Positions 2,635-6,286 of a stretch of DNA of 64,000 nucleotides are shown piece after piece. Origin of the DNA: SAR202 cluster bacterium bin22 (GTDB taxonomy: Bacteria > Chloroflexota > Dehalococcoidia > Lucifugimonadales > UBA3495); contig MPMM01000002.1 in NCBI GenBank assembly GCA_002238505.1, positions 186,001 to 250,000 on the forward strand, read 5' to 3'. Position numbers and translations under genes: made by a program. Every line of letters begins with the position of its first letter. The first letter of the stretch is position 1. A model generated the notes under the pieces. The model was not told the DNA's origin. It saw only the letters and a program-made list of their open reading frames with translations, and did no database searches.

Positions 2635-3768
2635 ATGTCAAGACGCCTGTTCAAAGAGTTGGAGCGGTCCTACGGCTTTGACGAAGTTGCCATAGTGCCC
2701 GGCAATGTGACCATAAATCCCGAATTGACATCCACGAAAATGACCATCGGGGAATGCACTTTTGATGCGCCCATGATGGCTTCAGCCATGGATGGCACGG
2801 TTTCTCCCAAGTTCGCTACTTTGATGGACGGACTGGGCGGTCTCGGTGTGCTCAACGGCGAGGGTCTTTACTCCCGCTACGACGACCCCTACGCCATCCT
2901 GGAAGAAATTACCTCGATGCCCCAGGAGGAGGTTACCCAATACCTCCAGCAGGTTTACGCGGAACCGATCAAGGACAACCTGATCGGCAAGAGAGTAGAG
3001 GAAATAAAAGGCGCAGGGTCCACCTGCGCCATTGCTTTTACCCCACAGAACACCAAGCGCATGTCCCCGGCGGCAGTGGAGGCTGGCGCGGACATCGTAG
3101 TCGTACAGTCCACGGTCACCACTGCCCGGCACCAGTCCCGCAGCTATCGGGGCCTGATTTTCGCGGAACTGATTGACTCGCTAAGCGTTCCGGTGGTAGT
3201 GGGCAACTGCGTCAGCTATGACGTGGCCATGGAACTGATGGAAACGGGCGTTGACGGAATACTGGTCGGCGTGGGGCCGGGCGCAGCCTGCACCACCCGC
3301 GAGGTGACCGGCGTGGGAGTCCCCCAGGTGAGCGCTACCCTGGAGTGCGCCGCCGCCCGCCAGGACTATTTCCATCGTACCGGGCGGTACGTCAATGTGA
3401 TTACCGACGGGGGCATCCGGACCGGCGGCGACATGTGCAAGGCCATCGCCAGCGGCGCCGACGGTGTAATGGTCGGGACGCCCTTTGCCCAGGCCGAAGA
3501 GGCTCCGGGTCGGGGCTATAACTGGGGTATGGCCAACGCCCATGCCGAGTTGCCCCGGGGCACCCGCATCAAGGTAGGGACCAGGGCTTCGTTGAAGGAG
3601 ATAATGTACGGTCCCACCTCGGTGACCAACGGCACCCAGAACCTGGTTGGCGCTCTTCAGGTAGCCATGGGTATGTGCGGGGCCTATACCATTCGGGACT
3701 TTCACCAGGCGGAAATGGTCATCGCCCCGGCCATCAAGACCGAGGGCAAGTTCTTCCAGCTTGGTTAG
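2635..3768 (+). CDS. guaB3: GuaB3-family IMP dehydrogenase-related protein
   Basis: A 377-residue (beta/alpha)8-barrel protein of the IMP dehydrogenase/GMP reductase superfamily. It lacks the CBS-domain pair of ordinary IMPDH and has the length of the actinobacterial and chloroflexal GuaB3 group. The start ([20 protein letters not shown]) is typical of that group. The catalytic loop is visible as [20 protein letters not shown] at about residues 211-230, with the Cys that attacks the purine C2. The phosphate-binding segment follows as [19 protein letters not shown], with [12 protein letters not shown] after it. Members are predicted to act in cytosolic purine nucleotide interconversion; whether this one oxidises IMP or reduces GMP is not decidable here. 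It has its own promoter and stands upstream of the selenoprotein gene with a 123-nt gap. Confidence 0.9.
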
Positions 3769-3891
3769 CGTTTCCTGCGTTCTGATTTAATGCTGACTGC
3801 ACAGCGGCGGGAGCCGGGCTGGTGAAAGCCGTTGCAAAGCAGCGCATGATCTTTCAGTCCTTTAGTAGAAGATTCCGGGAGGTTACAGGTT

Positions 3892-4434
3892 ATGGTTTCA
3901 GCGACCGGGACAATTCAGATTCTGGATCCCCGACCGGAGGATGTTCCTGAGGAGAGGGGACTCAGTTCCGAGCTTCCCAGCCTGGAAGGCAAGGTAATCG
4001 GACTGCTGGAGAACCGGAAGTACCACGCGGACTCGTTCCTGCTGGAATTGCAGCGGGTGCTGGAGGAGGAGTACAAGGCCAGGAAGGTGGTCTATGCCTC
4101 CAAATTTACCTTCAGCATGCCCTGCGCCGACGAAACGATAGACACCCTGGTGGAGGAATGCGATGTCGTTGTCCACGGCATCGCGGATTGAGGCTCCTGC
4201 ACGGCGTGGGGTCTCCACGACACAGTAGTAACCGAATCCCACGGGGTTCCGTCGGTCAGCGTCATTACCAGCTCATTCACGCGGGCAGCCCACGCCCGGG
4301 CTGCGGCATTGGGAATGCCGGGGGTGCGCATTGTGGAACTGCCCAGCCCCCTGGCGTCTCGCAGCGTCGAGGAAGTGCAGGCGATGGCCCACGAATATGC
4401 TGAAGAAATCGTGGGATTGCTGACCACCGGATAG
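3892..4434 (+). CDS. UGSC-family selenoprotein with in-frame UGA (Sec100)
   Basis: The frame opens at ATG 3892 after GGGAGG (3877-3882) and reaches a TGA at codon 100 (4189-4191). The same frame continues for 80 codons to TAG at 4432-4434, giving 180 residues. The residues around the TGA read HGIAD-U-GSCTAWGLHD, the signature that names the family annotated in databases as UGSC family (seleno)protein. The downstream half (VTESHGVPSVSVIT, RAAALGMPGVRIVELPSPLA) is protein-like and matches the family pattern as I recall it, so the TGA is read here as selenocysteine rather than stop. A SECIS-like hairpin lies at the expected distance. The U-x-x-C arrangement suggests thiol/selenol redox chemistry, but no activity is known to me. 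It lies 89 nt upstream of the AIM24-like gene, with a terminator between. Sec-insertion genes (selA, selB, selC, selD) are not in the window and must lie elsewhere. Confidence 0.88.
4192..4226 (+). promoter_or_regulatory. Bacterial SECIS-like hairpin downstream of the Sec UGA
   Basis: CGTGG (4205-4209) and CCACG (4215-4219) form a five-pair stem closed by the loop GGTCT (4210-4214). The loop begins 18 nt after the UGA. The E. coli fdhF SECIS, as I recall its sequence, has the same GGUCU apical motif at the same 18-nt distance. This supports SelB-dependent recoding. Lower-stem pairing is imperfect and was not computed. Confidence 0.75.
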
Positions 4435-4523: not shown

Positions 4524-5216
4524 ATGCAAACAGTGATTGAATTTGAAGCAAGCTACGCCATGCTTACCGTGGTACTGGAGCCGGGGGAGAGCATAAAGGC
4601 TGAACCCGGGGCCATGGTAGCCCAGCAGGATGTGGAAATGAAAACCGGTTCGGGAGGTGGCGGCCTTTTCGGAGGCATCCGCCGGATGCTGGGCGGAGAG
4701 TCTTTCTTTATCAATACCTTCACCGCCAACAGAGACGGAGGGCAGGTGTGCCTGGCGCCGTCCACTCCCGGCGATATTGGTTCCTTTGCTTTGCCGACGG
4801 GCCGGAACCTGTTTATTCAGTCCAGTTCTTTCCTGGCCTGTACCGATAATGTTCAGACGGACTCGCAGTTCCAGGGATTCCGCGGCTTCTTCAGTGGAGA
4901 GAGCCTCTTTTTCCTGCGGGCATTCTGCGAGCGGGGGGATGGCACGGTCTTTTACAACTCATACGGGGCAATCAAACGCCTGCCGGTGGAGCCAGGCAAG
5001 GAACTGGTGGTGGATACCGGTCATCTTGTGGCTTTCAGCGATGACGTGGACTATTCAATTGGCAAGGTGGGAGGCATCCGGTCACTGCTGGGCGGCGGCG
5101 AGGGTCTGGTGATGAAGTTTCGGGGCAACGGGCACGTGTGGATACAGACCCGCAACCTGGCGTCCCTGGTGGAGAAGCTGATGCCCTTCCTGCCCACGCC
5201 GGACAGGGGGCAGTAA
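4524..5216 (+). CDS. AIM24 / TIGR00266 family protein
   Basis: A 230-residue all-beta protein of the AIM24/TIGR00266 family. The N-terminal half contains EPGAMVAQQDVEMKTGSGGG and a glycine-rich GGLFGGIRRMLGGESFFINTF. A similar block recurs near the C-terminus (GKVGGIRSLLGGGEGLVMKF), matching the internal pseudo-repeat of the family. Its molecular function is unknown in bacteria; the eukaryotic relative is a mitochondrial protein. No signal peptide or membrane segment is evident. It ends 2 nt before the next start codon, so the two genes are almost certainly co-transcribed and coupled. Confidence 0.85.
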   Translation: MQTVIEFEASYAMLTVVLEPGESIKAEPGAMVAQQDVEMKTGSGGGGLFGGIRRMLGGESFFINTFTANRDGGQVCLAPSTPGDIGSFALPTGRNLFIQSSSFLACTDNVQTDSQFQGFRGFFSGESLFFLRAFCERGDGTVFYNSYGAIKRLPVEPGKELVVDTGHLVAFSDDVDYSIGKVGGIRSLLGGGEGLVMKFRGNGHVWIQTRNLASLVEKLMPFLPTPDRGQ

Positions 5217-5218
5217 GG

Positions 5219-6286
5219 ATGAATCCATTGTCCATCCAATCGCGCCGGGTGGAGGTGGAAGCCTCCTTCGACGCTATCCAGGACTACTACGAACAGCAGG
5301 GCTGGACCGATGGACTGCCCGTGGTCCCTGCCACCGAGGATCTGGTGCGCAAGATGCTGCTGCCCTATGGTCAGGACCCTTCGACCAGCCTGGGCGTGGT
5401 ACAGCCCCGGAATGCCAGGGTTACGCTGGAGAAGGTGGCCATTAACGCGGTCATGGCCGGGTGCAAGCCCGAGCACTTCCCGGTGGTGGTGGCGGCGGTG
5501 AAGGCGGCGATGCAGCCGGACTTCAACATAGCGGGCGTGCAGGCCACTACCGGTGGCGCGGCGCCGGTGGTAATTGTTAATGGTCCCATAGCACGGGAGC
5601 TGGAAATCAATGGCGATTCCGGATGCTTCGGACCGGGTTACCGCGCCAATGCTTCCATTGGCCGCGCCCTTAGACTGTTCGTGCGAAACGTGGCGGGGCT
5701 GATACCCGGTGAAATGGACAAAGCCACCCTGGCCCTGCCGGCCCGGTACACCTTCTGCTTCGCCGAGAACGAGGCCCGCAGCCCCTGGGAACCGCTTCAC
5801 GTGGAAATGGGGCTTGACCCTTCGGCCAGCATGGTGACCCTGATGGGAATGCGGGGGATGTACACGATAATGGAAAGCACCTCTCCCACGGGCATCCAGG
5901 TGCTGCGTACCCTGGTGGGTTCCCTCAGGACCATTGGCGTCTCCAACTATTACCAGACGGGCACGGGCGCGCAGTTGGCCCTGGTGCTGTGTCCTGAGCA
6001 TGCTGCAGAAATCCACGCCTCGGGCCTTTCCAGGCAGGATGTGCGGGAGTATATATTCCAGAACGCCCGAATGCCGCTGCGCCGGCTGGAGGGCATTGCC
6101 CACTATGGCAACCGCAATTGGCCCAAGTGGATCGATGAATCGGACCCGGATGCCATGATTCCAATAGTGGGATCGGCTGATGACGTGCTGGTAGTGGTTG
6201 CGGGAGGCGATGGGCGTCATTCAGCATGGCTGGCCGGCTGGGGCGTAACCAGGAGGACAACGGAGGAGATAGAGCGGCCCGAGTAA
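5219..6286 (+). CDS. Uncharacterised conserved protein, WTDGLPV type, likely partner of the UGSC protein
   Basis: A 355-residue cytosolic-looking protein. The open frame extends upstream, but the ATG at 5219 directly after the AIM24 stop is preferred because the extra 27 residues would overlap that gene. Visible blocks include YYEQQGWTDGLPVVPATED near residue 25, NAVMAGCKPEHFPVVVAAVK, GPIARELEINGDSGCFGPGY and NRNWPKWIDESDPDAM. From memory, proteins with the WTDGLPV(V/I)P block occur beside or fused to UGSC proteins, so the neighbourhood fits. Two cysteines (in AGCKPE and SGCFGP) are candidate functional residues. No catalytic family could be assigned. The reading of this and the UGSC gene as one redox system is inference. 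Confidence 0.75.
   Translation: MNPLSIQSRRVEVEASFDAIQDYYEQQGWTDGLPVVPATEDLVRKMLLPYGQDPSTSLGVVQPRNARVTLEKVAINAVMAGCKPEHFPVVVAAVKAAMQPDFNIAGVQATTGGAAPVVIVNGPIARELEINGDSGCFGPGYRANASIGRALRLFVRNVAGLIPGEMDKATLALPARYTFCFAENEARSPWEPLHVEMGLDPSASMVTLMGMRGMYTIMESTSPTGIQVLRTLVGSLRTIGVSNYYQTGTGAQLALVLCPEHAAEIHASGLSRQDVREYIFQNARMPLRRLEGIAHYGNRNWPKWIDESDPDAMIPIVGSADDVLVVVAGGDGRHSAWLAGWGVTRRTTEEIERPE

Follow-up and report, generated by a model that had tools for sequence, protein, structure and literature searches.

A UGSC family selenoprotein gene from a SAR202 bacterium and the two-part enzyme proposed for it

In the genome of SAR202 cluster bacterium bin22 a frame of 180 codons is broken by one TGA. Is this codon a stop, or is it read as selenocysteine (Sec), and if it is read, what would the whole protein do? 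The DNA considered here (the window) is a stretch of 64,000 nt from assembly GCA_002238505.1, contig MPMM01000002.1, positions 186,001-250,000 of the forward strand. All window coordinates count from its first letter (Table 1). An earlier note, made from the letters alone, had called this gene a UGSC-type selenoprotein. The UGSC family dates from the selenoprotein surveys of 2007-2008, and no function has been given to it since. We argue that the earlier reading is correct, and that the gene probably encodes one half of an enzyme for the cleavage of small carbon compounds.

Table 1. Features of the UGSC locus in window coordinates
Feature	Position	Strand	Remarks
UGSC family selenoprotein gene	3892..4434	+	180 residues, Sec at residue 100, TAG stop
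Ribosome-binding site GGGAGG	3877..3882	+	9 nt before ATG; from sequence
UGA codon, almost certainly read as selenocysteine	4189..4191	+	U/C there in nearly all homologs; genome's Sec machinery
Bacterial SECIS hairpin	4205..4219	+	covarying stem and constrained loop codon across 123 relatives
Partner gene, P family (P0002)	5219..6286	+	355 aa; adjoins or is fused to UGSC at nearly all loci
AIM24/TIGR00266 gene between UGSC and P	4524..5216	+	profile matches; judged outside the system
GuaB3 IMP dehydrogenase-related gene	2635..3768	+	kept upstream of UGSC in the two closest relatives

The reading frame and its UGA codon

The TGA is the only one in the frame, and it leaves 99 residues before Sec100 and 80 residues after it. 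The earlier note had described an otherwise open frame with the flanking residues D-U-GSCT, and the sequence bears out both points. It had also judged the 80 codons after the UGA to be protein-like. They are indeed conserved in relatives, with differences mostly at third codon positions. In this part 61/80 residues are identical to those of locus L112 and 63/80 to those of L113, and the differences at the three codon positions number 17/16/36 and 14/10/35 respectively.

The UGA could be taken as a genuine stop, or as a recent nonsense mutation with the downstream half decaying. Standard gene calling would end the gene at this codon and report a 99-residue product, as the earlier note had said. 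However, the downstream codons are conserved with the bias described above. The host genome has three further UGSC genes with one TGA apiece, so the same UGA is found in four paralogs, and it recurs at 135 collected UGSC loci. The note had proposed a search for the Sec-insertion genes, and they are all present in this 4.39-Mb genome: a tRNA-Sec with anticodon TCA (67.5 bits), SelA (542 bits), SelB (348 bits) and SelD (386 bits, with an in-frame TGA of its own). It is hardly conceivable that the UGA is a stop here. The host SelD (contig C57:40142-41065, L018) is, given its own TGA, probably a Sec-containing selenophosphate synthetase.

From end to end the translated 180-residue frame fits the UGSC (seleno)protein family, both as NF041046 (144 bits, cut-off 125) and as PF24696 (174 bits, cut-off 25). 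Nearly all homologs have U or C at the Sec site, as the earlier note had anticipated. The window protein has the same motif and the same Sec position as the rest of the family, and no difference was seen. It is an ordinary member of an already known selenoprotein family. The note had named three findings that would speak against it, namely homologs that end at the UGA, a lack of conservation downstream and the absence of Sec genes, and none of these holds. The partner gene, the GrdB link and the paralog families described below go beyond that note. This confirms 3892-4434 as a true selenoprotein gene, and judged from sequence the insertion of Sec at its UGA is next to certain.

The cysteine forms of the family are also worth considering. 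SelA was sought in ten genomes with a clear motif. It is present in full in 7/7 genomes with a Sec form (UGSC or UGSS), and there is no full SelA in the three genomes with the Cys form CGSC (L132, L136 and L166). On a larger scale, selA is found in 31/32 UGSC-bearing Chloroflexota genomes against a background of 243/301. This co-occurrence is weakly consistent with Sec use, since selA is common in Chloroflexota. The UGSS motif occurs at L138:5257-5766, L157:5402-5902 and L140:728-1234, all in genomes with SelA. There the Sec is kept and the second Cys has become Ser. This implies the second cysteine is dispensable in these proteins, which fits Sec as the lone nucleophile.

The hairpin downstream of the UGA

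The hairpin reads CGUGG-GGUCU-CCACG, with its stem at 4205-4209/4215-4219 and its loop GGUCU at 4210-4214. Its loop and spacing are probably those of the E. coli fdhF SECIS, as the earlier note had said. The earlier note had started the hairpin 18 nt after the UGA. That distance is right for the loop (GGTCT in the DNA) and wrong for the hairpin as a whole, whose stem starts 13 nt after the UGA. The note had also suggested a comparison with the bacterial SECIS model, and the loop, the 5-bp stem and the 18 nt all agree with that model (PMC13188914). The model sets an upper limit of -7.5 kcal/mol on the free energy (PMC13188914). The 41 nt after the UGA reach -11.3, which is within this threshold, and the 25-nt hairpin stretch alone gives -7.1, which is slightly short of it. 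Folding energy was dropped as evidence for the hairpin, as with a z of -0.07 to -0.59 it does not stand out from shuffles.

The hairpin was compared across the 123 loci of UGxC type among the 135 Sec-type loci collected. A complete 5-bp helix at +14..+18/+24..+28 is found in 111/123 of them. When codons are permuted among sequences with the same amino acid, column by column, the mean is 64 of 123 and the maximum is 76. When codons are redrawn from usage elsewhere, the helix appears in 19 on average. The pair types of the stem vary among the loci (GC, CG, AT, TA and GT), and its variants include CGTGG/CCACG, CGTGC/GCACG, CGGCC/GGCCG, CGTTG/CAACG and CCTGG/CCAGG. Since the pair types vary, the stem has undergone compensatory changes. 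The codon at the loop position is constrained too. Serine is AGT there in 92/92 cases vs 6/52 elsewhere in the same stretches of sequence, glycine is GGT in 11/11 vs 17/143 and cysteine is TGT in 9/10. In both collected Cys-form sequences the loop-position codon is TGC. The hairpin is maintained beyond the demands of the protein sequence, via compensatory changes, in the 123 UGxC relatives. This in-frame hairpin would recruit SelB, and SelB would bring Sec-tRNA-Sec to the UGA. Ribosomes that fail to recode would release the 99-residue fragment.

The partner family and the paralog set of JACPQD01

The window protein that we assign to the P family has no credible match in Pfam, NCBIfam or PDB sequence searches. 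The host genome has four copies of P, one near or fused to each of its four UGSC genes. We surveyed 301 sampled Chloroflexota genomes, found UGSC in 32 and examined 62 UGSC copies. At 61/62 of these P has the strand of UGSC and either adjoins it or is fused to it, and at 59 it is within 400 bp (median gap 77 bp, with many fusions). The reverse survey scanned 84,980 species genomes for P and gave >580 loci, the best 80 of which were analysed. They are spread over Chloroflexota, Betaproteobacteria, Rokubacteria, Binatia, Deltaproteobacteria, haloarchaea, Neobacillus and others, and UGSC is nearby at 73 of these best 80, across phyla. Three of the seven without a nearby UGSC are at contig ends. 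Contig ends do not explain the remaining four (L114, L149, L167 and L177), and their genomes carry UGSC elsewhere.

A natural UGSC-P fusion is predicted to fold as one confident unit (pLDDT 94.3, pTM 0.93). A PDB fold search with this fusion gave matches that cover mainly the UGSC half. hhalign gave no distant link between UGSC and P, and P does not match PF09338, the pyruvoyl subunit family of glycine reductase (GrdE), which works with GrdB alongside GrdA and GrdCD. On the evidence of gene order and fusion we think it highly probable that UGSC and P would form an obligate two-part enzyme.

At the window locus the two genes are separated by the AIM24 gene. It was considered as a component of the system and rejected: in L113 nothing of its size lies between UGSC and P, and the ORF at that place in L112 is unrelated to it. 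For the GuaB3 neighbor upstream we found no evidence that ties its function to UGSC.

Other fusions were seen as well. One separate UGSC-P fusion subfamily (L096-L101 and L103-L108) has the motif USTC and a hairpin in a different register (GGCGGUCGCC). At L169:4026-4541 a degenerate UGSC is fused to P with GEGGNPT in place of the Sec motif, and SelA was found in that genome as a fragment only, at a contig start. L162:5368-6990 in Neobacillus bataviensis LMG 21833 is a Sec-type fusion, and there is a full SelA in the genome.

The largest set of paralogs is in JACPQD01 (Chloroflexi bacterium NC_groundwater_644, 5.0 Mb), the genome of L135, L151, L153, L155 and L177. It has at least 150 UGSC matches, with 150 of 208 candidates scored, and among the matches listed 4 have no in-frame TGA. 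SelA is present. A subset of 800 kb (L222-L261) was studied in detail, and it contains 71 UGSC and 71 P genes. The TGA is found in 70/71 of these UGSC copies, and P is on the same strand within 2 kb of 70/71. Strong SECIS-like hairpins are found in 83% vs a mean of 36% and a maximum of 50% for synonymous redraws. Thirteen UGSC copies fall within 60 kb of one contig. One might suspect strains that were assembled together. However, pairwise identity in the subset has a median of 27% and only one pair exceeds 90%, so strain co-assembly is disfavored. We also asked about a dedicated solute-binding protein for each unit. An SBP_bac_5 gene is within 500 bp of 47/71 units vs a mean of 32 and a maximum of 45 for random positions. 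This enrichment is modest because such genes are very dense in JACPQD01, and the idea was set aside.

The most selenoprotein genes reported in one bacterial genome is 63 (PMC13188914), and the most in any organism is 96, in Emiliania huxleyi (PMC7539508). If the JACPQD01 set is real it would exceed the count of any organism reported. It would also give selenium a major catalytic part in how some uncultured Chloroflexota turn over carbon. We give an even chance to the broader scenario in which UGSC and P are a large, modular group of selenoenzymes, specific for their substrates and using Sec as GrdB does, that is strongly expanded in some Chloroflexota, with well over 130 in JACPQD01.

There are practical consequences as well. 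Ordinary gene callers truncate the UGSC gene itself. P, found at >580 genome loci, is listed in neither Pfam nor NCBIfam, so annotation leaves it without a name.

Fold, chemistry and comparison with known systems

The UGSC family has no assigned function (PMC13188914). A 2008 ocean survey proposed a thioredoxin-like thiol oxidoreductase with a UxxC redox pair, and that motif is retained in most members. The structural argument disagrees. AlphaFold, run with 49 relatives, gives the window protein a model (pLDDT 94.6) in which strands and helices alternate five times in Rossmann-like order. Sec100 is placed between strand 92-98 and helix 101-116 (strand 3/helix 3). Its closest structural counterparts have Rossmann, receiver and lumazine-synthase folds, with no Trx fold among them, which is short of a formal exclusion. 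Pfam gives no Trx family match, and the UGSS variants do without the second cysteine. The thioredoxin-like proposal is improbable in our view, and we prefer a Rossmann-like Sec protein. The best match to a natural protein, tied with others, is chain H of PDB 8s7v, the methyl-coenzyme M reductase activation complex (Z 11.4, 129 residues, 2.9 A), and this chain is possibly a relative.

The one specific lead to chemistry comes from GrdB. Residues 89-178 of UGSC align by hhalign with the Sec domain of full-length GrdB-like proteins, Sec on Sec, at P 7.8e-9, a pairwise value rather than one from a database search and one that rests on a small GrdB alignment. The value is 6.7e-5 when the CGSCT motif is masked, and the reversed and column-shuffled controls do no better than about 0.05. 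The GrdB model PF07355 did not match any of 45 UGSC members at E 1; its domain ends just before the Sec of GrdB. Since UGSC lacks the PF07355 match and aligns with the Sec domain, we call it, by sequence comparison, a relative of the GrdB Sec domain and not a GrdB.

The host genome has two short proteins that resemble the C-terminal part of GrdB. In L200 (contig C39:37378-37788) the Pfam GRDB match ends exactly at an in-frame UGA (UPLCTHT). The other is at C53:155111-155596 and is known from its GrdB-like match region alone. Both are probably further selenoproteins missed by callers.

UGSC would be the catalytic half of the two-part enzyme, Rossmann-like and homologous to the GrdB Sec domain. 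P most likely completes the active site and binds the substrate. Sec100 would attack a polarized carbon and expel the leaving group, as in GrdB, and the resulting selenoether would then be reduced by thiols. In glycine reductase the substrate is bound by protein B, which also sets ammonia free; the UxxCxxC motif of protein B likely meets GrdA (PMC13188914). Genes near UGSC loci encode TctC receptors, SBP_bac_5, CoA-transferases, MmgE/PrpD, TPP enzymes and asparaginases. These uptake and catabolic neighbors support a substrate-cleaving role. An anti-phage role was considered, and there is no PADLOC match.

One can also suppose that UGSC works with P while Sec serves as a ligand to a metal or cofactor, or as a nucleophile in hydrolysis or isomerization, rather than in reduction. 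Many non-redox enzymes share this arrangement, in which a reactive residue follows a strand of a Rossmann-like fold, and the neighbor genes are catabolic and not specifically redox. However, GrdB is a reductase, and its similarity to UGSC is the sole specific lead, which points to reduction. We consider a non-reductive Sec unlikely, though a serious competitor. UGSC-P probably breaks small carbon compounds, most likely by substrate-specific reductive cleavage with Sec as the nucleophile. That this follows GrdB chemistry proper is an argument by analogy, and we rate it a coin toss. The sequences themselves show a kept Sec codon with the machinery to decode it, a maintained hairpin, the pairing with P and a likeness to GrdB, whereas insertion of Sec in the cell, complex formation, the nucleophilic chemistry and the substrate are all things that we infer here. 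The whole explanation, a SelB-decoded Sec in a UGSC-P enzyme with GrdB-like bond cleavage, is nonetheless the best one and in our judgment a rather likely one. Given a fixed partner, the homology to GrdB and a confidently predicted fold, what UGSC does can now be tested directly.

We found no prior report of the P pairing, the GrdB relationship or the large paralog set in the literature covered, which leaves out Haft and Tolstoy 2025, possibly on UGSC. As far as we checked, the pairing, the relationship and the paralog record are undescribed. Among several domain fusions described from the Global Ocean Sampling selenoproteome (PMC2398784) are the UGSC/Unknown_1 proteins, which join a UGSC domain to an unnamed domain just as the UGSC-P fusions do. 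Unknown_1 is probably the P family. What differs is that the pairing found here is near-universal, whether fused or separate.

Among the closest known systems are protein B of glycine/sarcosine/betaine reductase (GrdB) and PrdB of D-proline reductase, and the direct comparison was made with GrdB. GrdB and UGSC both have Sec followed by GxCT at the same place, and the helix downstream, the GIPxV strand and an H-P segment align. However, GrdB is larger, at about 430-460 residues, and its N-terminal half is long, whereas UGSC has 180 residues, a P partner and no PF07355 match. GrdB-like proteins have been proposed to attack even C-F bonds, as in the monofluoroacetate-cleaving FarB/FarE (PMC10838667). 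Like the pair that we propose, FarB/FarE combines a substrate-specific Sec protein with a partner, and its Sec is proposed to attack a C-X bond. FarB and FarE are true homologs of GrdB and GrdE, whereas the UGSC pair has just the Sec domain in common with them.
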